Assembly: GCF_900450995.1 (NCBI RefSeq)
Contig: NZ_UGHY01000002.1
Coordinates: 2,103,001 to 2,167,000 of the forward strand
From: Haemophilus parainfluenzae
Lineage (GTDB): Bacteria > Pseudomonadota > Gammaproteobacteria > Enterobacterales > Pasteurellaceae
DNA: 64,000 nucleotides
Direction: 5' to 3'
Of this stretch, positions 35,136-46,488 are shown in pieces. How positions within the stretch are numbered: the first letter of the stretch is position 1; each line of letters begins with the position of its first letter. Below the pieces are notes generated by a model, which was given only the letters and a program-made list of their open reading frames with translations, was not told the origin of the DNA and made no database searches. The translations under genes were made by a program, and so were the position numbers.

Positions 35136-38100
35136 TTAAACCTCGCCACCAATCCCAACAAACTTCTCAACAAAGGCAACAATCTTTTGGAAAATGCTTT
35201 GTTTTTTAGTGAGATATTGCGGATTAAGCGGACTCATTTTCGGTAGGGCATCATTTAAATCCGTACCTTGTTCACTAGCATATCCGCGTTTTAAGGATAC
35301 GTTAATATAACGCTTCGCGGCATCAATATTCAGGCCTTCACTGCTAATTAATTCGTCAGCCTCTTTCTGTTGCTCTTTTTGGGCAAATTGGAAGAAGGAC
35401 TCAATAATACCGGCTTTATCAACTATGCTATCTAAGTCCGTTTGATTGATAAAATCTACGATCAAACTTTCTTTGGCTCGATTACCTAGACTGGCTCGGA
35501 TTGTGGTTCGAATTTCATCAATCAGCTCAGCTTTATTTTTCATTTTCTTGTTGTGTTCAAAAATCAATTCTAAGATGTAATCTAGATTGATTTCTTGGGA
35601 TTTTAATAAATCCACTTCAAATACTACATCGTCCCAATCAATGGTCGATTTTGCTTTTTCCTCGCCATCTTTTTGACGACGAAGCCAATCCCGAATATCG
35701 TTGTAAGTCGAACGGTAATTCTGAATGTGGCGTTCACTTGGCATATCAATAGGTTGCATTTCAGCAAAAGCTTCGTCCGTTAAATAATATTTTTCTTTAA
35801 AGGCTTCAACGGCTTTTGCATCGCTGGTATCGAGTGATTGAAATGCTTGTAAAGCAGCGAACTCATCATAGTTTTGCAGAATGTTTTCAACCCGCAAATA
35901 TTCACCAAATAATTTTACAAAGTCTTTCTTGTCTTTTTCTGTTTGAATTTCATCTGGATCAGAGAAGCGTTCTTGCAATTCAGCAATAACCTCTAAATAC
36001 CCGCGACGGGCGACACCTGCATCAGTAAAGCCTTCCATATATTCTTGGTAACTTTTTTCTAATACAATATTGCGTGTATTGGATTTACCGAAAAGCGTAA
36101 TAGCATCAATGGTATCTTGTTCCAAATCACGGAAAGTGACGATATTGCCAAAACTTTTGGTGCTGTTGTAAATACGATTTGTACGAGAATAAGCTTGAAT
36201 TAAACCATGATAACGTAAGTTTTTATCTACAAATAACGTGTTTAAGGTTGGGGCATCAAAACCAGTTAAAAACATTCCAACGACAATCAGTAAATCCACT
36301 TCTTTGTTTTTGACGCGTTTGGCGAGATCACGATAGTAGTTTTGGAACGATTTCGCATCCACATCGTAATTGGTGGCAAAATAGCCGTTGTAATCATCAA
36401 TAGCAGATTTTAAAAATTCCTTAGCAGAAGAGTTCATTGCCTCTACTTCAAAACTTTCATCAACAATATCACCAATCGCATCTTGCTCTTCATTCGCGGC
36501 AAACGAAAAGATTGTTGCAATTTTAAGTGGATTTTTGACCGCACTTTGTAACTGTTTAAACGTTTGATAATAAGCTTTGGCCGCATCCACACTACTTACC
36601 GCAAACATGGCATTAAATCCATTATTACCCGCATTAAAGCGATGTGTCTTTTGTTTGAAATTATCTAGGACATATTGGGCAATTTGCTCAATACGTTTAG
36701 GTTGTAAAAAGGCTTGTTTTTTCTCGAGTTTTGTTAGCTCTTCAAGATTCTTTTCAGTTTCAATGCTCTTGAATTGTGGCCGTACATCATTGTAATCCAC
36801 TTTAAATTTCAACACTTTTTCATCACGAATCGCATCGGTGATAATGTAAGAGTGGAGTTCAATGCCAAAAACACTGGCTGTAGTTTCAGCACCTAATGCG
36901 TTAGTTGGAAAAATAGGCGTGCCGGTAAAACCAAATTGATAGTATTTTTTAAATTCTCTCGTTAGATTTTTTTGCGCTTCACCAAATTGAGAACGATGGC
37001 ATTCATCAAAGATAAAAACGACCTGTTTATCGTAAATCGGTAATTTATCTTCCGATTTCATTAGGTTATTGAGTTTTTGAATGGTGGTGACAATGATCTT
37101 ATTGTCGTCTTTGTCGATATTGCGTTTTAGACCAACCGTACTTTCCGAACCATTCACGCTATCCGGTGAAAAGCGTTGGTATTCCTTCATGGTTTGATAG
37201 TCCAAATCTTTTCTATCTACCACGAAAAATACTTTTTCAATAAAGTCTAATTCTGTTGCAAGGCGTGCGGCTTTAAAGCTGGTGAGCGTTTTGCCTGAGC
37301 CTGTCGTGTGCCAAATGTAGCCGCCACTTTCTTGATTACTCCAATTTTTCGCCTGATATGAACTTTTAATTTTCCATAAAATCCGCTCGGTGGCGGCAAT
37401 TTGATACGGGCGCATAATCAATAGGGTGTCGGAAACATCAAACACGCAGTAATTCACCAATACATTGAGCAGGGTATGTTTTTGTAGGAATGTCGCCGTA
37501 AAATCCTTTAAATCTTTAATCAGAGTATTTTTTGCCGTTGCCCAATTCATTGTGAAGTCGTAGCTGTTCTTATCGCGTTTGGTGGTATTGGCAAAATAGC
37601 GGGTATCCGTGCCATTAGAAATGACAAAAATCTGAATATATTTAAAGAGAGAATTTTCTTTATTGAAACTTTCTTTGCTATAGCGGTGAATTTGATTAAA
37701 GGCTTCACGAATGGCCACGCCGCGTTTTTTCAGTTCGATATGCACAAGCGGTAAACCATTCACCAAAATCGTCACATCATAACGATTGTCATAGCTGCCG
37801 GTTTGTTCAAATTGATTGATAACTTGCACGGCATTATTGGCAAGATTTTTCTTATCTAGCAAATAGATGTTCTGAATGTGTCCATCATCAAACACAAAAT
37901 CATAAATATAGTCATCATGAACTTTCCGGGTTTTCTCAATCAGACTATCACTGGGTTTATCCAAATATTCCTCTAAAAAACGTCGCCATTCCGCATCGGA
38001 GAAAACTACATTATTCAATCGTTGTAATTGTGTCCGTAAGTTTTTAACCAACGCATCATGACCATTGATTTCTTGTAAATACTCATAGCCTTGCGCCCGT

Positions 38101-38231
38101 AAATCATTAATAAACTCACGCTCAAGACTCCCTTCCGTTTGGTAACCAGCATTAGGCTCTTCCACAAATTTATTATATTGATCTAAAACGATAAAATTAT
38201 TGGATTCAGCGATAGTTTTGTATTGGGTCAT
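35136..38231 (-). CDS. hsdR: Type I restriction enzyme, R subunit
   Basis: HsdR is the DNA translocase/endonuclease of a type I R-M system. The 1031-residue protein has an N-terminal nuclease domain with [20 protein letters not shown] (the D...ExK core), then helicase motifs: Walker [12 protein letters not shown] near residue 310, VVDRKDL, the DECHRSQFG box, [19 protein letters not shown] and QAYSRTNR. The C-terminal helical region would bind the methylase. It is the distal gene of hsdM-hsdS-RAYT-rhuM-hsdR, only 10 bp from rhuM. Confidence 0.96.
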
Positions 38232-38241
38232 AAGTAGTTCC

Positions 38242-39240
38242 TTAATGCTTTTGCTTTTTCAGATCTTTTTGCCATTTTTCTAAAATTTCTAAATCTTCAT
38301 TATCAGCTTGTATGCGTTTTTGTTGTTTTCTGACCTGATCAAATAAGGCATATTGTTCTTTAGTAAAGGTTTCCATTTGTTTCACGGTTCGGGTTCCATT
38401 GCCGATAAGCAACGGAAAACCGTTAAATTCAATTAAATTATCGACATTATTACGCCAGAAATTCAATGTCAGATCTTGACGGTTTTTAACACGTAATTCG
38501 GCACTTTCTAAAAAGATCATCACTAGACGATTCAAGGAATCTAATTCATCATGCGTTAAATAGTTTTTAGCGACAATAATATCGCCTTTACGTACAACAG
38601 CACCTTTCCAAGAGGTGAGGCCCATATTAGGCAATTCAGCATTTGCACGCGTACAAATGAGTTCTGCTGCAGTTTGTTGTGTAATAGCATAGAGCAACTT
38701 ATTTTGTGTCTCGGTAAAAAACATTTGAGTGACTTTATCTGTTTTATCGTAGTCACTGGATAATTTAAATAGCTCTCGTACTTTTTGATAAAACCGCAAT
38801 TCACTGGCTCTAATTTCACGAATTTGTTCTAGTAATTCATCAAAATGATCAAATCGACCTTGCGGATTTTTCAACCGCTCTTTATCTAATAGAAAACCTT
38901 TATCTAAATAAGTACGTAATTGCGTATTCGCCCAACGGCGAAACTGTACACCACGAGGGCTACGCACACGAAAGCCGATGGCGAGAATCATATCAAGAGA
39001 ATAATGTTTTACTTGATATTGCTTGCCATCTTGGGCAGTTATTAAGTAATCTTTAATAACTGAAAACTCATCTAACTCTTTGTCTTGTAATATGTTTTTT
39101 ATATGAGTGGTTATATTTGGTACAGAGGTGTCGAAAAGTTCCGCAAGCTGATTTTGAGTCAACCAAGCCTCATTTTCGACAACCAATAAAGCAACGTGAG
39201 ATTTGCCGTCGTCGGTGTTGTAGATGATTAAGTCGTTCAT
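38242..39240 (-). CDS. rhuM: RhuM-family protein inside the type I R-M operon
   Basis: The 332-residue protein starts [50 protein letters not shown]. This is an N-terminal HTH-like region followed by [35 protein letters not shown], the RhuM signature. The C-terminal half is helical and charged. The family was named after a Salmonella pathogenicity-island gene, but it is common in R-M and defence loci and its activity is unproven. Here it sits between hsdS and hsdR on the same strand and 10 bp from hsdR, so it is probably cotranscribed and may modulate restriction. Confidence 0.88.
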
Positions 39241-39256
39241 TATTTCTTCTCAAATT

Positions 39257-39319
39257 TGTAGGGTGGGCTTCAGCCCACCAATTAACCATAATAAACTGTA
39301 GGCTAAAGCCCACCCTACA
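39257..39319. repeat. REP pair (inverted) downstream of the RAYT gene
   Basis: TGTAGGGTGGGCTT at 39257-39270 (continuing into the hairpin GGTGGGCTTCAGCCCACC) and AAGCCCACCCTACA at 39306-39319 form an inverted pair of REP-like palindromes about 25 bp apart. Confidence 0.9.
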
Positions 39320-39325
39320 GTATTG

Positions 39326-39856
39326 TTATATATCACCTTTAATTTTCAAATCTGGGTTGCCTCCCCAATCTTCAGGATAAATCTCTGCTTTCACATCACG
39401 ATGGAAGGAAGAATACGGCCAATTTTTTACTACCTCAACATAGCCGTGTTTCACAGGATTGTAATAAATATAATCTAAATGATTCGTTAAATCTTTATCA
39501 TCACGAATTAAATGCTCCCAAAATCGGCGTTGCCAAATACCTGATTCTCGATATTTTTGTCTATTTTTATTAAATTGTCGGCATTCTTTTGGAAGTTGTC
39601 GTGTAAATTGTGTTTTTAAATATGCGATGCGTATTGCGTAATTATCATCATTTTCAGGTAATTGCATCAGTAAATGAATATGATCGGGCAAGATACAAAT
39701 TGCTACTGTTTCGAATGGATAATGTTCACAAGTTTGTTTATATGCAGATCTAAATTCATTGATATAGTCAGTTAGATAAGATTTTGTTCTATCTTGTAAA
39801 ACAATTGTGAAAAAATATAATCCACCTTTAGTAAAATCGCGACGATAATTAGACAT
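39326..39856 (-). mobile_element. REP-associated tyrosine transposase (RAYT)
   Basis: The 176-residue IS200/IS605-like Y1 transposase has the HUH pair in CILPDHIHLLMQLP, the AYLKTQFTRQL helix where the Y1 family carries its catalytic tyrosine, and the RAYT-typical GIWQRRFWEHLIRDDKDLTNHLDYIYYNPVKHGYV. It is flanked on both sides by inverted REP palindromes sharing GTAGGGTGGGCTT, the arrangement of a REPtron. Such enzymes are usually domesticated single-copy genes that process REP elements. It lies between hsdS and rhuM on the operon strand, and probably interrupts an ancestral hsdS-rhuM junction. Confidence 0.92.
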
Positions 39857-39877: not shown

Positions 39878-39940
39878 CGTAGGGTGGGCTTTAGCCCACC
39901 GTTTGTTGTGATTAATTGGTGGGCTGAAGCCCACCCTACG
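39878..39940. repeat. REP pair (inverted) upstream of the RAYT gene
   Basis: CGTAGGGTGGGCTTTAGCCCACC (39878-39900, written here only as two REP arms) and its inverted partner ending CCACCCTACG (39918-39940) form a second REP pair. Each unit is itself a near-perfect hairpin GGTGGGCT-GCCCACC with a GTAGG head. Confidence 0.9.
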
Positions 39941-39942
39941 GG

Positions 39943-40518
39943 TTACGAAAAATTTAATAACAATTCTCTATAATATTCATACCGCTTTTGGCTTTCTTCA
40001 ATCGCTAAAGGCAAGCCTTCGGTGATGGAATTAGTTAAGGTTTCAAATTTATCGAGGATTGAGACGATGCGGTGTTGTTCTTCGAGTGTAGGAAGAGGAA
40101 TTTCATAATTCAAAAAAATATCAGCCTTAACTCTAATTACTTTTGTACCTTGAGCATATTTTTCTTTAAATTTATAAAATCTTTCTGTTTGCAAAATATA
40201 TGTTAAGAATTTTGTATTTACTCTTTTATTAGGTCTAAATGCAAACATATCGCCTGAAAAAGCAATTTCACTACCAAGCCATCCAAGAGGTTTCATTACA
40301 TCTTTTAAATTTTCACTAGTCCCAGCAATTAATACATCACCATATTTAGCTTTTTTTAATTTTTTAGCCAATTCAGGCGAAACAAAAGATTTGGTTTTCG
40401 TGGCAAATGTACCATAGTAGGTATAAATTTGGCCATAATGAATGGCTGGAACGCCCGTTTCGGTAAAATCTTTCTTCTGTAATCCATTGCCACGAATTAA
40501 CTCGCCCAAATCAATCAA
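39943..40518 (-). CDS. hsdS: Type I specificity subunit, C-terminal half (out of frame)
   Basis: This 191-residue segment carries the second target-recognition domain (VPAIHYGQIYTYYGTFATKTKSF ... GLQKKDFTETG) and the distal conserved region (PLPTLEEQHRIVSILDKFETLTNSI, then ESQKRYEYYRELLLNF). It has only a TTG start possibility and no clear ribosome-binding site. It is one base out of frame with the N-terminal half because of the G7 tract at 40536-40542; one extra G would fuse the two into a 391-residue HsdS of normal length. Alone it may be poorly translated. Confidence 0.85.
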   Translation of the reverse strand: MIDLGELIRGNGLQKKDFTETGVPAIHYGQIYTYYGTFATKTKSFVSPELAKKLKKAKYGDVLIAGTSENLKDVMKPLGWLGSEIAFSGDMFAFRPNKRVNTKFLTYILQTERFYKFKEKYAQGTKVIRVKADIFLNYEIPLPTLEEQHRIVSILDKFETLTNSITEGLPLAIEESQKRYEYYRELLLNFS

Positions 40519-40532
40519 TTTTATCCATTGGA

Positions 40533-41117
40533 CTACCCCCCCGATAGCTCTAAACTATCAAAAGATAATAATTTTTCTCGATAGTATTCATATTGTTTCT
40601 GGCGTAGTATAAGCTCGCTGGTAAGCTCGCTGGTAAGCGCTGTCAATGCATCCAAAATTTTTACGATTTCGGTTTGGACGGGGAGTGGGGGGATGGGGAT
40701 TTCAAATTTCTCAAGCATTGGTTTTCTTATTGAAATAGCTGTTGCACCAACACTTTTAGAAAGAATATATTTCTTAAAGCTATTATGCATTATGTAATAT
40801 AAGAATTTTGTATTTACTTCATCTGAGGTAATGTGGATTCTGTATGCTCGTTGATGTAAAGCATATTTCCCTTCTACATAATGAAAAATATCTCCAATGC
40901 CTCCTTCGCCAGGGATGATAATTGCAGTTTCATCAAATTGAAAAGAATTAGATCTAAGAATATTTTTTGAACGAACATAAAATGGATACTGGCCATTTTC
41001 TTCTTCATCTTGTCGATTTGAATTTCCTGTTCCAATTTCTGCTAAATCCATCAAAGATTTCCACTCAACCTCAGCCCCATCCAATAATTTCTCTAAAAAA
41101 GTGCGGTTGTTTTTCAT
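40533..41117 (-). CDS. hsdS: Type I specificity subunit, N-terminal half (truncated at poly-G)
   Basis: This 194-residue product holds the first target-recognition domain (EVEWKSLMDLAEIGTGNSNRQ ... GEGGIGDIFHYVEGKYALHQRAYRI). The central conserved region follows, with TSEL-TSEL repeats and KQYEYYREKLLSF. It ends with ELSGG and a TAG stop created at the G7 tract. It is 6 bp from hsdM. In other systems such half-subunits can dimerise and recognise a palindromic site, so the truncated form may still direct modification. HsdM, HsdR and the full HsdS would form a type IC-like enzyme. Confidence 0.88.
   Translation of the reverse strand: MKNNRTFLEKLLDGAEVEWKSLMDLAEIGTGNSNRQDEEENGQYPFYVRSKNILRSNSFQFDETAIIIPGEGGIGDIFHYVEGKYALHQRAYRIHITSDEVNTKFLYYIMHNSFKKYILSKSVGATAISIRKPMLEKFEIPIPPLPVQTEIVKILDALTALTSELTSELILRQKQYEYYREKLLSFDSLELSGG
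40536..40542 (-). repeat. Homopolymer tract (seven G on the coding strand) within hsdS
   Basis: Seven C on the plus strand, read as seven G in hsdS. With seven, the frame ends at TAG immediately after. With eight (or five), it continues in frame into VVQWIKLIDLGELIRGNG of the second half. Confidence 0.9.
40611..40634 (-). repeat. 12-bp tandem repeat encoding TSEL in hsdS
   Basis: Two perfect copies of AAGCTCGCTGGT (plus strand) encode TSEL-TSEL in the central spacer of HsdS, followed by a degenerate third copy. It is the counterpart of the TAEL repeats of EcoR124-type subunits. Confidence 0.9.
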
Positions 41118-41123
41118 GGTGTT

Positions 41124-42671
41124 TTACCCCTCAATCTCCGCCACAATTTTGTCAATCTCCACACGCAAGCGGTCGATATTGGCAACAGTTTCACGAATTT
41201 GCGCATTGAGCTCATCTATATCAATGACTTCTCGGGTGTCTTTTTGCTCCACATAAGAACTCACCGCAAGGTTGTAGTCATTTTTAACGATGTCGTCAAA
41301 GGACACGGATTTGGCTAAATGCGGTACATCTTCTTTATCGGCAAACAGTTTGAGAATTTGCTCAATATGTTCCTCTTCCAAAATATTATTATTGGTGGCG
41401 GATTTAAATAAACCGCTGGCATCAATAAATTGGGTTTGGGTATTGGGTTTGTGTTTGGAAAGCACCAAAATATTCACCGCAATACTGGTGCCAAAAAAGA
41501 GATTGGGCGCTAAGGCGATCACCGTTTCCACATAGTTATTATCCACCAAATATTGACGAATTTTTTGCTCCGCACCGCCGCGGTAAAAAATGCCGGGGAA
41601 GGAGACAATCGCCGCGCGGCCTTTTGCTGAAAGATAACTTAACGCATGTAAAATAAAGGCAAAGTCCGCTTTAGATTTTGGTGCAAGCACACCGGCAGGG
41701 GCAAAGCGTTCATCGTTAATTAGCGTTGGATCGTCTGAGCCAATCCATTTCACGGAGTAAGGCGGGTTAGAAACGATAGCATCGAAAGCTTTATCCTCAC
41801 CAAATTGCGGATTCATTAAGGTGTTGCCAAGAGCGATATTAAACTTGTCGTAGTTGATGTTATGCAAAAACATATTCATTCGGGCGAGGTTGTAAGTGGT
41901 GTGATTAATTTCCTGCCCGAAGAACCCTTCTTCGATGATGTGTTCATCAAATGGTTTTTTCGCTTGCAACAATAAAGAACCTGAACCGGCCGCAGGGTCG
42001 TAAATTTTATTGACCTTATCTTGTCCATATAAAGCCAGTCGAGCAATCAGCTTGGAAACGCATTGTGGCGTAAAGAACTCGCCACCCGATTTACCGGCAT
42101 TAGCAGCATAATTGGAAATTAAAAATTCGTAAGCATCACCGAATAAATCAATATGATTATCTTCAAAGTCACCAAAATCTAACTCGGCAACGCCTTTTAA
42201 TACGGCAGCGAGACGACTGTTTTTATCGGCAACGGTATTGCCCAAGCGGTTGCTGGTGGTATCAAAATCAGCAAATAAGCCTTTGATATCCTGTTCGGAA
42301 GGGTAGCCAGTAGCAGAATTTTCGATATCAGTAAAAATGCTTTTCAGATCTGTATTTAAATTCGGATTAGTATTGGCTGTCGCCACGACATTTTTAAATA
42401 ATTGGCTTGGGTAAATAAAATAGCCTTTTGCTTTGATGGTGTCTTCTTTGATTGCCGCAATAATAGGATCATCGTCATTAAATGCAGAATAATCAACGCT
42501 ATCATCGCCACCTTTAATATAGTTGGCAAAATTTTCACTGATAAAACGATAGAAAAGCGTACCTAAAACATATTGTTTAAAATCCCAACCATCGACGGAA
42601 CCGCGTACATCATTAGCGATTTGCCAAATACGGCGTTGAAGTTCTGCGCGTTGTTGAATTGCTGCTGCCAT
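41124..42671 (-). CDS. hsdM: Type I modification methylase, M subunit
   Basis: This N6-adenine methyltransferase subunit has 515 residues. It has an N-terminal helical domain ([33 protein letters not shown]), the AdoMet motif [12 protein letters not shown] near residue 223, and the catalytic NPPY in [25 protein letters not shown] is also typical. It is the first gene of the minus-strand R-M operon; the start ATG 42671 faces the divergent recB across 137 bp, where the operon promoter should lie. Confidence 0.97.
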
Positions 42672-42808: not shown

Positions 42809-45800
42809 ATGAGTCAAAAATCAACCGCACTTAATGCCATTTCGTTACCCTTAAATCAAGTCAATTTAATTGAAGCCTCTGCAGGTACAGGGAAAACCTA
42901 TACCATTGGTTCTGTCTATCTTCGTTTACTTTTACAGGCTGGTGAGAATTGTTTTTCTCGTCCGTTGAATGTGGAAGAAATTTTGGTCGTAACTTTTACT
43001 GAAATGGCGACGGAAGATTTAAAACGCAAAATTAGGGAACGTTTAACGGCGGCAATTTCGGTTTTTTCTGAATATTATGAAAAGCAAAACAAGGAGATTT
43101 TTACTGGGGAACATCAATTTTTAGCGGAATTGTTGCCTTATTTAGAGGATATTCCGACCGCACTTCGCCGCTTAAAGCTAGCGGAGCAAAATTTAGATTT
43201 AGCCTCCATTTATACCATTCACGGTTTTTGTCGACGAATGCTGATGCAACATGCTTTCAATTCAGGAGTACATTTCAATTTAAAACTTCTCAAAGATCAG
43301 TCTGATTTACTCAAACAATTTGCAAATGAATTTTGGCGGGAGCATTTTTATTCCCAACCTTTCGAGATTGCTAATTTTATCTCGAAAGAGTTAGGTTCGC
43401 CTGATGATGTGTTAAGCATTTTAGAATCTGATTTAAACAAAGATGTATCGGTAGCGACAGACAACCAACAAAGCTTGTCGTTGTCAATTGATGAATTTTT
43501 ACAGAAAAGTGTGGGAGAGCGATTAAAAGCTGTTGAAGCTCTAAAAGTTTTTTGGTTAAAAAATGTAGATGAAATTTCCTCCATTATCATGGAGGAAATA
43601 ACAAAAGATTATCCAAAGATCAGCTCAAATCTCTCGATCGTAAAATCTACCAAAAAGAACGTCTTAAAACATGGATTAAACAGATTAATGAATGGGCAAA
43701 TAATCCACTAGATTATGAAATAAATAAAACATTAAGGGACTATTTTTTACAATCTTCGATTGAGCAAAAATACGAAAAGCCGACAAAAAACACGAAAAAT
43801 AAAAAAGCGGCTATACCGTTCTATGCACCGATTTTTGCAGAACTTGAAGAACTGGTTGAACAACATCAACCAAGTGATTTATTTAAAAAAATCATTCTCT
43901 ATCACTATCGTCAAGGTATCCAAAAGAAACTTCTTGAATACAAAGCGAATCATCCTGAAAAATCCTTTGATGATTTATTACGCTTATTGAAAGAAGCATT
44001 ACATGGTGAGGAAGGAGAACAGTTAGCGGAATTAATTCGTTTTCAATATCCTTTTGCCATGATTGACGAATTCCAAGATACGGATGCGTTGCAGTATCAA
44101 ATTTTCTCGAAAATTTATCACAATGAAACCGCGTCTGGTAATGTTGGCTTTATGATGATCGGGGACCCAAAACAGGCGATTTATCGTTTCCGTGGTGCTG
44201 ATATTTTCACTTATCTAAAAGCAGCAGACGAAGCGAGCGAGCGTTTTAATTTAGGCACAAACTACCGTTCATCCCAACCTTTAGTGGAAGGGGTAAATCG
44301 ATTATTTGATTTTAAAAATTCACCTTTTATTTATGAAAACATCGAATTTTTAAACGTCGGCGCAGCCAAGAAAAATCTTGTGTTTCAGTTGAATAATCAA
44401 CCTGAACCCGCCTTCCGTTTTTACATTAACGATAAAGACAAGTCCACCCAGCAAGATTATGCGAAAGCTTGCGCGACATCGATTCAGCAATGGTTAAAAA
44501 GTGCGGCTGAAAATCCAGTTGTTTTTCCGAATGAAAGCAAAGCAGAAAATCAAACATTGCGAGCAGAAAATATTGCCGTTTTGGTGCGTGGTTATACCGA
44601 AGCGGATCTCGTGAAGAAAGAATTGCAAGCACTCGGTATTGCTTCGGTTTACCTTTCGGATAGAGGAAATGTCTTTGAGAGTAACACCGCAAAAGAACTG
44701 GCCTTGATTTTGCAAGCTTGTTTGAGTGTGACGGAACGCCCAATTTTGAATGCCATTGCGACCGCACTTTTCGGCTTAAATGCAGCTGAAATTCACCAAA
44801 TTCACCAGGATGAAATTCAGTGGCAACGTTGGGCTGAAAAATTCGCAGAGTATCAACAAATTTGGCAACGCCAAGGCGTCTTGCCGATGTTGCACCATTT
44901 ACTTTTAGCTGAAAATATCACAGAAAAGCTCTTATCTCGGCCTGATGGCGAACGAAAACTGACGGATTTATTACATTTAGCTGAAATTTTACAGCAAGCA
45001 GCCGCATTAAATGAAAGTGAAGCGGCATTATTGCGTTGGTTTGAAAAGCAAATTCAAGATAATGGTCGTCAAGAAGCACAAATTCGTTTAGAAAGCGAAC
45101 GGCAATTAGTGAAGATTGTGACTATCCATAAATCCAAAGGATTGGAATATGATTTGGTTTGGTTGCCATTTTTAGGTAATGAAGCAAAAGACCCAACAAA
45201 AGCAGGTAAGCAGAAGAAACTGTTTAATTTATATTACGACAGTGATGAAGAGAAAACCTTGTGGGATATGCAAGATCAACACTTGAATGAATTAACAGAA
45301 GAAGTGTTTGCGGAAGAATTGCGTTTGCTTTATGTAGCATTGACTCGAGCAAAATACCAAATGGCCTTTGTGTTACCGAAAGCCTTTGATAAAAAATGGA
45401 ATGCTTTATTGTATGTTTTAACGCAAGGTGAAATTGGTCGAAAACTTGATTTGCCAGCTAATTGGGATACCCAACCGTTATTGGAAAAATTTAAGCAGCT
45501 TTTACCAAATGATGTAGCGATTGAATTAACCGATGTGTTACAAGCCAGTGAACCACTTACTTTAAATGTTTCTCAAGAAAATTTAAGCGCAGAAATTTTC
45601 CAAGGTGAAATTGAACAAGATTGGCGAGTGACGAGCTTTAGTGGCATAGAACAAACACATCAACGCAAAGCTTATTTGAATGAAAGTGCGGTGAAAAAAT
45701 CGCTCATTTTTGATGATGCGAAAGATTATGATGCGTTGATTTCAACAGAAAATATCACTGAAAATCTGACCGCACTTGCTCATGATAACGATGAAATGGT

Positions 45801-46488
45801 TCTAGATTTCCCTCGGGGAACACAAATCGGTACTTTATTGCATCGTTATTTTGAAAAGGTGCCTTTTGCTCAACTGGCAGAGAAAGAAAATATTGAAAAA
45901 TTATGTCAGGATTTGAATCTTGCGGAAGAGCAGTTTGCAGCAGTTCAACAATGGTTTGCACAAATACTCAGCACACCAATTTTGCCAAATAATGATCTTA
46001 CCCTTGCTCAAATTAACGAAAAACAATGTTTAAAAGAGTTGGCGTTTTATCTCAATATTTCAAGCCATTTTGATGTGGCTGGTTTTAACCGAGCGTTAGC
46101 AACTTTACATCATTTGCCATCAGAACCGTTACAGTTTGATGATATTCAAGGCATGGTGCGAGGCACAATGGACTTAGTTTTCTGTCATCAAGGTAAATAT
46201 TATTTGCTTGATTACAAATCGAATTTCTTAGGTGAGACATTAAAGGATTACGATCAAGCTGCACTGAAAAAAGCCATGTTAGAGCATCATTATGATTGGC
46301 AATATTTGTTGTATGTGGTGGCATTACACCGTTATTTAAAAACACGTTTGCCTGACTACGATTACAAGCGAGATTTCGGTGGTGTGGTCTATGCATTTTT
46401 ACGAGGAATGAATGGTTCGCCACAATCAGGCATCTTTTTTGATAAACCAGATTGGCAATTAATCCAACAATTAGAGGAATTATTTTAA
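42809..46488 (+). pseudogene. recB: RecBCD subunit RecB, apparent frameshift
   Basis: RecB is the 3'-5' helicase and nuclease of RecBCD. The first part (Walker A EASAGTGKTYTIGSVYLRL, TFTEMATEDLKRKIRERL) runs from ATG 42809 to VDEISSIIMEEIT. The frame is then lost at the AAAA run at 43603-43606; adding one A restores KRLSKDQLKSLDRKIYQKERL and the rest. The downstream frame contains FAMIDEFQDTDALQ, GDPKQAIYRFRGAD, VTIHKSKGLEYDLVW and the nuclease motif LLDYKSNFLG. The restored product would be about 1226 residues, normal for RecB. The stop overlaps recD (TAATG). An undercall in sequencing is the favoured explanation. Confidence 0.87.

Follow-up and report, generated by a model that had tools for sequence, protein, structure and literature searches.

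A type IC hsdS split at a poly-G tract next to a TSEL spacer repeat in Haemophilus parainfluenzae: a candidate two-specificity switch of the NgoAV kind

A type IC operon with hsdS in two frames

The DNA analysed here (the window) is a stretch of 64,000 nucleotides from Haemophilus parainfluenzae. On its minus strand, HsdM, HsdS and HsdR of the EcoR124 kind are encoded together in one gene cluster and, on gene content and profile matches, the operon is assigned to type IC (EcoR124-family) restriction-modification in a Pasteurellaceae host. The cluster comprises hsdM (41124..42671), encoding a DNA adenine methyltransferase subunit of 515 aa (TIGR00497, 5.6e-195), hsdS in two frames (41117-39943) with PF01420 in both halves, and hsdR (35136..38231), encoding an EcoR124-type restriction/motor subunit of 1031 aa (EcoR124_C, 5.5e-73; HSDR_N, 2.5e-49). 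Two further minus-strand genes lie within it. A RhuM-family gene (38242..39240; PF13310, 7.8e-101) is found between hsdS and hsdR, and a REP-associated tyrosine transposase (39326..39856; NF047646, 2.6e-52) between hsdS and rhuM. REP-like palindromes, seen by eye in the window sequence, flank the transposase at 39250-39330 and 39880-39945. In two related loci (L089 and L103) the 3′ end of hsdS is present a second time, behind a palindrome pair of the REP-like kind. In PADLOC, the RhuM-family gene of the restriction operon is a match to PDC-S05, a candidate defence family (7.5e-142).

Among the best 80 of at least 559 confirmed HsdM matches, the closest by best segment were those of Actinobacillus ureae (93%), H. 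influenzae HI-5290 (92%) and H. haemolyticus (90%). A plasmid search gave 251 matching records, none of which covered 80% of the query. The genome's other contig, of 4176 bases, is possibly a small plasmid.

The 5′ half of hsdS (40533..41117, minus strand; PF01420, 5.4e-25) encodes 194 aa that carry TRD1 and the first conserved (dimerisation) helix; the frame, read from 41117 to 40533, terminates in SGG*, 20 codons past the start of the helix motif. The junction between this helix and TRD2 is occupied by a tract of seven G on the coding strand (40536..40542, C7 on the plus strand), and the TAG stop at 40535-40533 follows the tract directly. TRD2 and the second conserved helix are encoded by the 3′ half (39943..~40554, minus strand; PF01420, 1.6e-16), which lies in the neighbouring frame and has a TTG at 40518 as its listed start. 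Both halves score above the Methylase_S cut-off, and EcoR124II HsdS (7bst) is the best solved relative of each, the N-terminal half matching it at 4.8e-29. Neither half contains any further stop, and hsdM and hsdR are full-length. Of 564 glycine codons counted over 16 genes of the window, 9% are GGG. The original prediction, that hsdS is split by a G7 tract which closes the N-terminal half at TAG, that one more G would join the halves and that two recognition domains are distributed over them, was thus upheld on each point, the two frames being one step apart at the tract.

A 12-bp direct repeat (40610..40638, minus strand; coding strand CTTACCAGCGAG), present in 2.4 copies over 29 bases a short way upstream of the tract, encodes TSEL. 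It aligns with the TAEL of EcoR124II, a four-residue repeat in the first conserved helix, and is the counterpart of the repeat (TAEL or LEAT) that sets the spacer in type IC HsdS. In EcoR124, one additional TAEL repeat shifts the spacer of the recognised site from N6 to N7 (PMC3874165).

The number of G7 runs in the window (1 observed, 1.07 expected; at least one in 58 of 100 shuffles) is unremarkable by chance in 64 kb, and the run itself was therefore not taken as evidence. Its weight comes only from its position and its behaviour in relatives. Over the whole genome, runs of 7 or 8 G number 16 once the 20 overlapping matches are merged. In a screen of the window for split frames, hsdS was the sole junction with a G run longer than 4; two other frame overlaps contain an A7, and at these the neighbours are different genes (RnfG/RnfE; nuclease/desulfurase). 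The second type I system of the genome (L115 5200-5260; G000:C2 ~1343700) has a G8 at the hsdM/hsdS junction. Nine of ten loci were compared at this junction (L127 was left out); in the nearest relative (L121) the length is equal and the difference is a substitution, while in the others the G run is shorter or broken up. Nothing in these loci thus points to switching by slippage. The remaining three G8 runs of the genome lie within open frames of 301-859 aa.

Tract length, frame state and repeat number in relatives

To score the junction in relatives, 140 Pasteurellaceae genomes were searched at the DNA level. Matches were found in 34 genomes; of the 38 matches, 30 were made into loci and scored, the other 8 having no locus and standing outside the scoring. 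A second search of the same 140 genomes, with the Histophilus junction as query, gave matches in 16, some of them weak, and 19 loci. These hsdS genes are treated as a second lineage because their repeats encode LEAT, not TSEL, and their linker differs in sequence. The 49 loci were pooled. Three without a helix motif (L152-L154) were dropped, as were L156, which is the L149 gene, and L157, which represents the second motif of the L155 gene, leaving 44 alleles. A tract was defined as a single run of at least 6 G; by this rule L102, in which a G7 is interrupted before three more G, has a tract and L101, with a longest run of 4, has none. The G7 of L104 lies beyond the linker and was caught by the wider span only. 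For many alleles the frame state was called from a frame open for at least 180 codons beyond the helix motif.

By their linker, two classes of allele can be told apart, one with a G run and one lacking it. Runs of 6-20 G are present at the junction in 19 of the 44 alleles, the window included, of which 11 have a full-length frame and 8 are broken; of the 25 alleles without a tract, 23 are full-length and 2 (L110 and L147) are broken. The association of the tract with a broken frame is moderate by this count (Fisher p=0.011, with related alleles treated as independent). The p value becomes 0.032 when L156 and L157 are kept, and neither lineage reaches significance by itself (0.07 for TSEL, 0.09 for LEAT). 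As the alleles are related, it serves as a guide only. Traced backwards, the second-half frame stays open as far as the tract in 7 of the 8 alleles that have a tract and are broken. The eighth, L141, has no second motif under the strict definition, and a looser motif puts the opening before the tract. L036, of H. influenzae HI-5290, and L110 have a stretch of hsdS in common and are broken within TRD2, at a distance from any long G run of the junction region. The genome with L110 is assigned to a different genus (g19) from that of the window (g1).

In the TSEL lineage, runs of 7, 8, 9, 10, 13 and 20 G are located 53-60 bases beyond the helix motif, the G7 of the window being at the short end of the range. 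Histophilus and other Pasteurellaceae with LEAT-type hsdS (L043, L139-L151, L155) have 6, 8 and 9 G at the matching junction, 48-52 bases beyond the motif. Of the 14 alleles scored in this group, 5 have a tract; full-length and broken frames both occur, as in the lineage of the window. Each species is represented by one allele, so these differences in tract and frame are between species, not within a clone. Variation of tract length and frame state between related species is what a phase-variable hsdS predicts, and the proposal that the gene is of this type is supported to that extent. Beyond the junction searches, at least one helix motif was found in 73 of 80 EcoR124-type loci (the best 80 of at least 559 HsdM matches; where only one motif was found, it may be the second helix). 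In this set, only three loci (L005, L006 and L043), all from Pasteurellaceae, have at least 7 G within 140 bases of a motif. A class-wide DNA search of 369 genomes for the LEAT-type junction returned one weak match of 32 bases.

Repeat number varies as well. TSEL is present in 1, 2, 3, 4 or 10 copies among relatives, the count for L110 being uncertain by one as one of its units reads NSEL. The ten copies, all perfect, are in the hsdS of H. haemolyticus M19501 (L005 7112-7235). In a wider sample of 62 full-length HsdS, scored with a strict motif that overlooks variants such as TTEL, 46 have two or three copies and 15 have none or one; L005 is the only one with ten, the other 61 having 0-3. Two H. 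haemolyticus loci, L005 with ten copies and an intact frame and L006 with four copies and a broken one, are 97.8% identical over 632 bases of DNA; the aligned stretch runs from within the repeat to near the gene end, and most of TRD1 is unaligned.

The literature offers a case from within a host. In an isogenic pair of nontypeable H. influenzae from nasopharynx and lung, one 12-base unit was lost from hsdS2 (NTHI0315, Thr173_Leu176del), a change classed by the authors as an in-frame deletion (PMC6646836). The lost unit is identical to the 12-bp unit of the window; its link to the spacer repeat is our own reading. The pair is a hint that the spacer repeat, too, is altered in the course of carriage. 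The difference between Histophilus somni strains, with one hsdS in 2336 and two truncated hsdS orthologues in 129Pt (PMC3339403), would fit the same behaviour. The 12-bp repeat, of which the original prediction makes no mention, probably makes the locus a two-part switch.

A putative two-specificity switch and its alternatives

Three known systems bear on the interpretation. NgoAV of Neisseria gonorrhoeae, which had been proposed as the comparison, proved apt: it belongs to the same enzyme class, its poly-G tract is likewise at the end of the N-terminal half, and tract length determines whether a truncated N-terminal half or a full HsdS is made. The truncated product is of the same kind (208 aa in NgoAV, PMC9577141; 194 aa here). 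A four-residue spacer repeat adjoins the tract in each, LEAT in NgoAV and TSEL here, and in NgoAV repeat changes also alter the site. Across 92 gonococcal strains the NgoAV tract has 6-9 G and fusion of the halves alters the site recognised, while 47% of the NgoAV-like loci in gonococci are predicted to be inactive through further mutations (PMC9577141). In 25 strains, LEAT number and frame state jointly track the methylated motif; the LEAT number there is 0-3, against up to 10 repeats in a relative of the window (PMC6789123). The two systems differ in that NgoAV belongs to another bacterial family and its specificity, switching and phenotype have been shown, whereas the present locus is a candidate described from sequence.

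EcoR124I, EcoR124II and EcoDXXI have the same HsdM, HsdR and HsdS families and a 12-bp repeat that sets the spacer. Truncated type IC HsdS are active as homodimers in EcoR124I (delta50, GAA N7 TTC) and EcoDXXI (deltaC, TCA N8 TGA), and NgoAV is cited as a natural case of an HsdS homodimer of N-terminal halves (PMC3874165). The covalent link between TRDs is dispensable for assembly or activity (PMC3320862). Unlike the split seen here, the truncations of EcoR124I and EcoDXXI are laboratory constructs or the work of a transposon, and the account of these enzymes in PMC3874165, as available to us, describes no slippage tract. The third system, the pentanucleotide switch of H. influenzae hsdM, is slippage-based type I phase variation in the same bacterial family (PMC6646836, PMC7394358); it differs from the present locus in that the repeat is in hsdM and the outcome is ON/OFF.

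The reading we lean towards, with modest assurance, is an NgoAV-like two-specificity slippage switch, with the poly-G between the first conserved helix and TRD2 and the truncated state recorded in this assembly. Two specificities are proposed because the window locus has the parts of the NgoAV system. Slippage of the poly-G would shift the hsdS reading frame. One frame would yield the full HsdS, whose TRD1 and TRD2 would direct the enzyme to a bipartite, asymmetric site. The remaining frames would yield the N-terminal half and no more; since TRD1 and the first dimerisation helix are retained, this half would most likely pair with itself and direct HsdM (and HsdR) to a palindrome of two TRD1 half-sites. 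The number of TSEL repeats would set the gap between the half-sites and, varying separately, would give further specificities. On this scheme the tract probably changes the DNA sites methylated by the cell. Both frame states occur in nature and relatives differ in tract and repeat; that this strain switches reversibly, that its homodimer would be active and methylate a palindrome, and that gene expression would be affected in any way, we infer.

Simple ON/OFF phase variation, in which the tract slips, the truncated HsdS is inactive and the whole system is switched off, is unlikely but carries some weight. In its favour, the out-of-frame allele L103 has a long unrelated tail that reaches a stop 69 codons past the helix motif, and ON/OFF is the outcome of the simple-sequence-repeat switches in H. 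influenzae hsdM and type III mod genes (PMC7394358). The N-terminal half in the window is, however, built like the active truncations of EcoR124I, EcoDXXI and NgoAV (PMC3874165, PMC3320862).

Long G runs are error-prone, and the recorded split could be a homopolymer error in a strain whose true tract is in frame. The state of recB, about 3 kb away, lends this some substance. In the window recB (42809-46488, plus strand) consists of two overlapping frames near 43670, whereas it is open in 10 of 10 congeners at 1214-1244 aa and split in none of them. This genome therefore has at least one other frameshift, be it a real lesion or a sequencing error, and as that frameshift is unique to this genome an assembly error in the recorded tract length is possible. 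The recB shift, however, falls where its two frames overlap, a stretch with no run longer than A5, and out-of-frame alleles are present in other assemblies, e.g. L086 (~20 contigs) and L103 (~30 contigs). An undercall of the tract is quite unlikely on this evidence, and were it true the locus would be of the same nature as before: the tract would remain a variable one, with only its recorded state changed.

Decay of hsdS as a pseudogene with a fixed, dead frameshift is a poorer prospect still. The tract-less alleles L110 and L147 are broken too, so ordinary decay of hsdS does occur, but the intact subunit genes and the lack of further stops described above are at odds with it here, and so is the constraint on the second half. 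That half is 96% identical to L086, 97% to L087 and 91% to L091, whereas the first half is only 38-40% identical to the same three. It is out of frame in L086 and in frame in L087 (G20) and L091 (G8), so intact natural copies of it exist. Its dN/dS is below 0.1 in all three comparisons (0.096 and 0.085, about 0.09, against L086 and L087; 0.074 against L091), values that indicate purifying selection. Private codons in the second half (synonymous/nonsynonymous) number 7/4 for the window, 7/1 for L086 and 9/1 for L087. The nonsynonymous share of the window is thus somewhat above that of its two nearest relatives, and the raw codon counts lean slightly to relaxed constraint, although constraint is visible on all three second halves. 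As part of the window branch may predate the current frame state, this constraint speaks for recent, not present, use. Between TRD1 of the window and that of a Gilliamella allele, identity is 76% (dN 0.142, dS 1.045); against L034, dS is saturated. From these substitution patterns, both halves look maintained.

Least probable is a two-piece HsdS, in which both halves are translated, e.g. by re-initiation just past the stop, and come together to restore the full specificity. EcoDXXI HsdS does regain wild-type activity when its N- and C-terminal halves are co-expressed (PMC3874165) and an ATG follows the TAG at once with the G run upstream, but the frame from that ATG is very short, the second-half frame has a listed TTG start with no ATG seen in frame near the junction, and hsdS2 of NgoAV yields no active protein (PMC9577141).

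Significance for Haemophilus and the type IC family

The NgoAV-like two-specificity reading can be extended to a combinatorial switch, which we put forward as doubtful but worth stating. The poly-G would pick TRD1+TRD2 or TRD1+TRD1, and the TSEL array would be a second site of slippage. Very long arrays may be tolerable mainly in the symmetric truncated form, in which both helices of a homodimer would lengthen equally. The ten-copy allele of H. haemolyticus M19501 is in the full-length frame, which argues against this last element. If the extension is true, repeat number and tract state together would give many specificities and some silent states.

NgoAV was, as of 2020, the only repeat-switched hsdS demonstrated according to PMC7394358, which cites a survey in which hsdS genes with repeats make up 7.9%. 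Our literature search found no report of a phase-variable hsdS in H. parainfluenzae; the survey just cited, which covers repeats in type I genes across REBASE, may list the locus. With the alleles described here, the NgoAV type of switch would now be represented in a second bacterial family, by many natural alleles and in both frame states. The natural series, with 1, 2, 3, 4 and 10 repeats and 6-20 G, offers a test bed for the way in which spacer helices and half-subunits set DNA specificity. These loci are candidates for epigenetic switching in Haemophilus, commensal and opportunistic alike.
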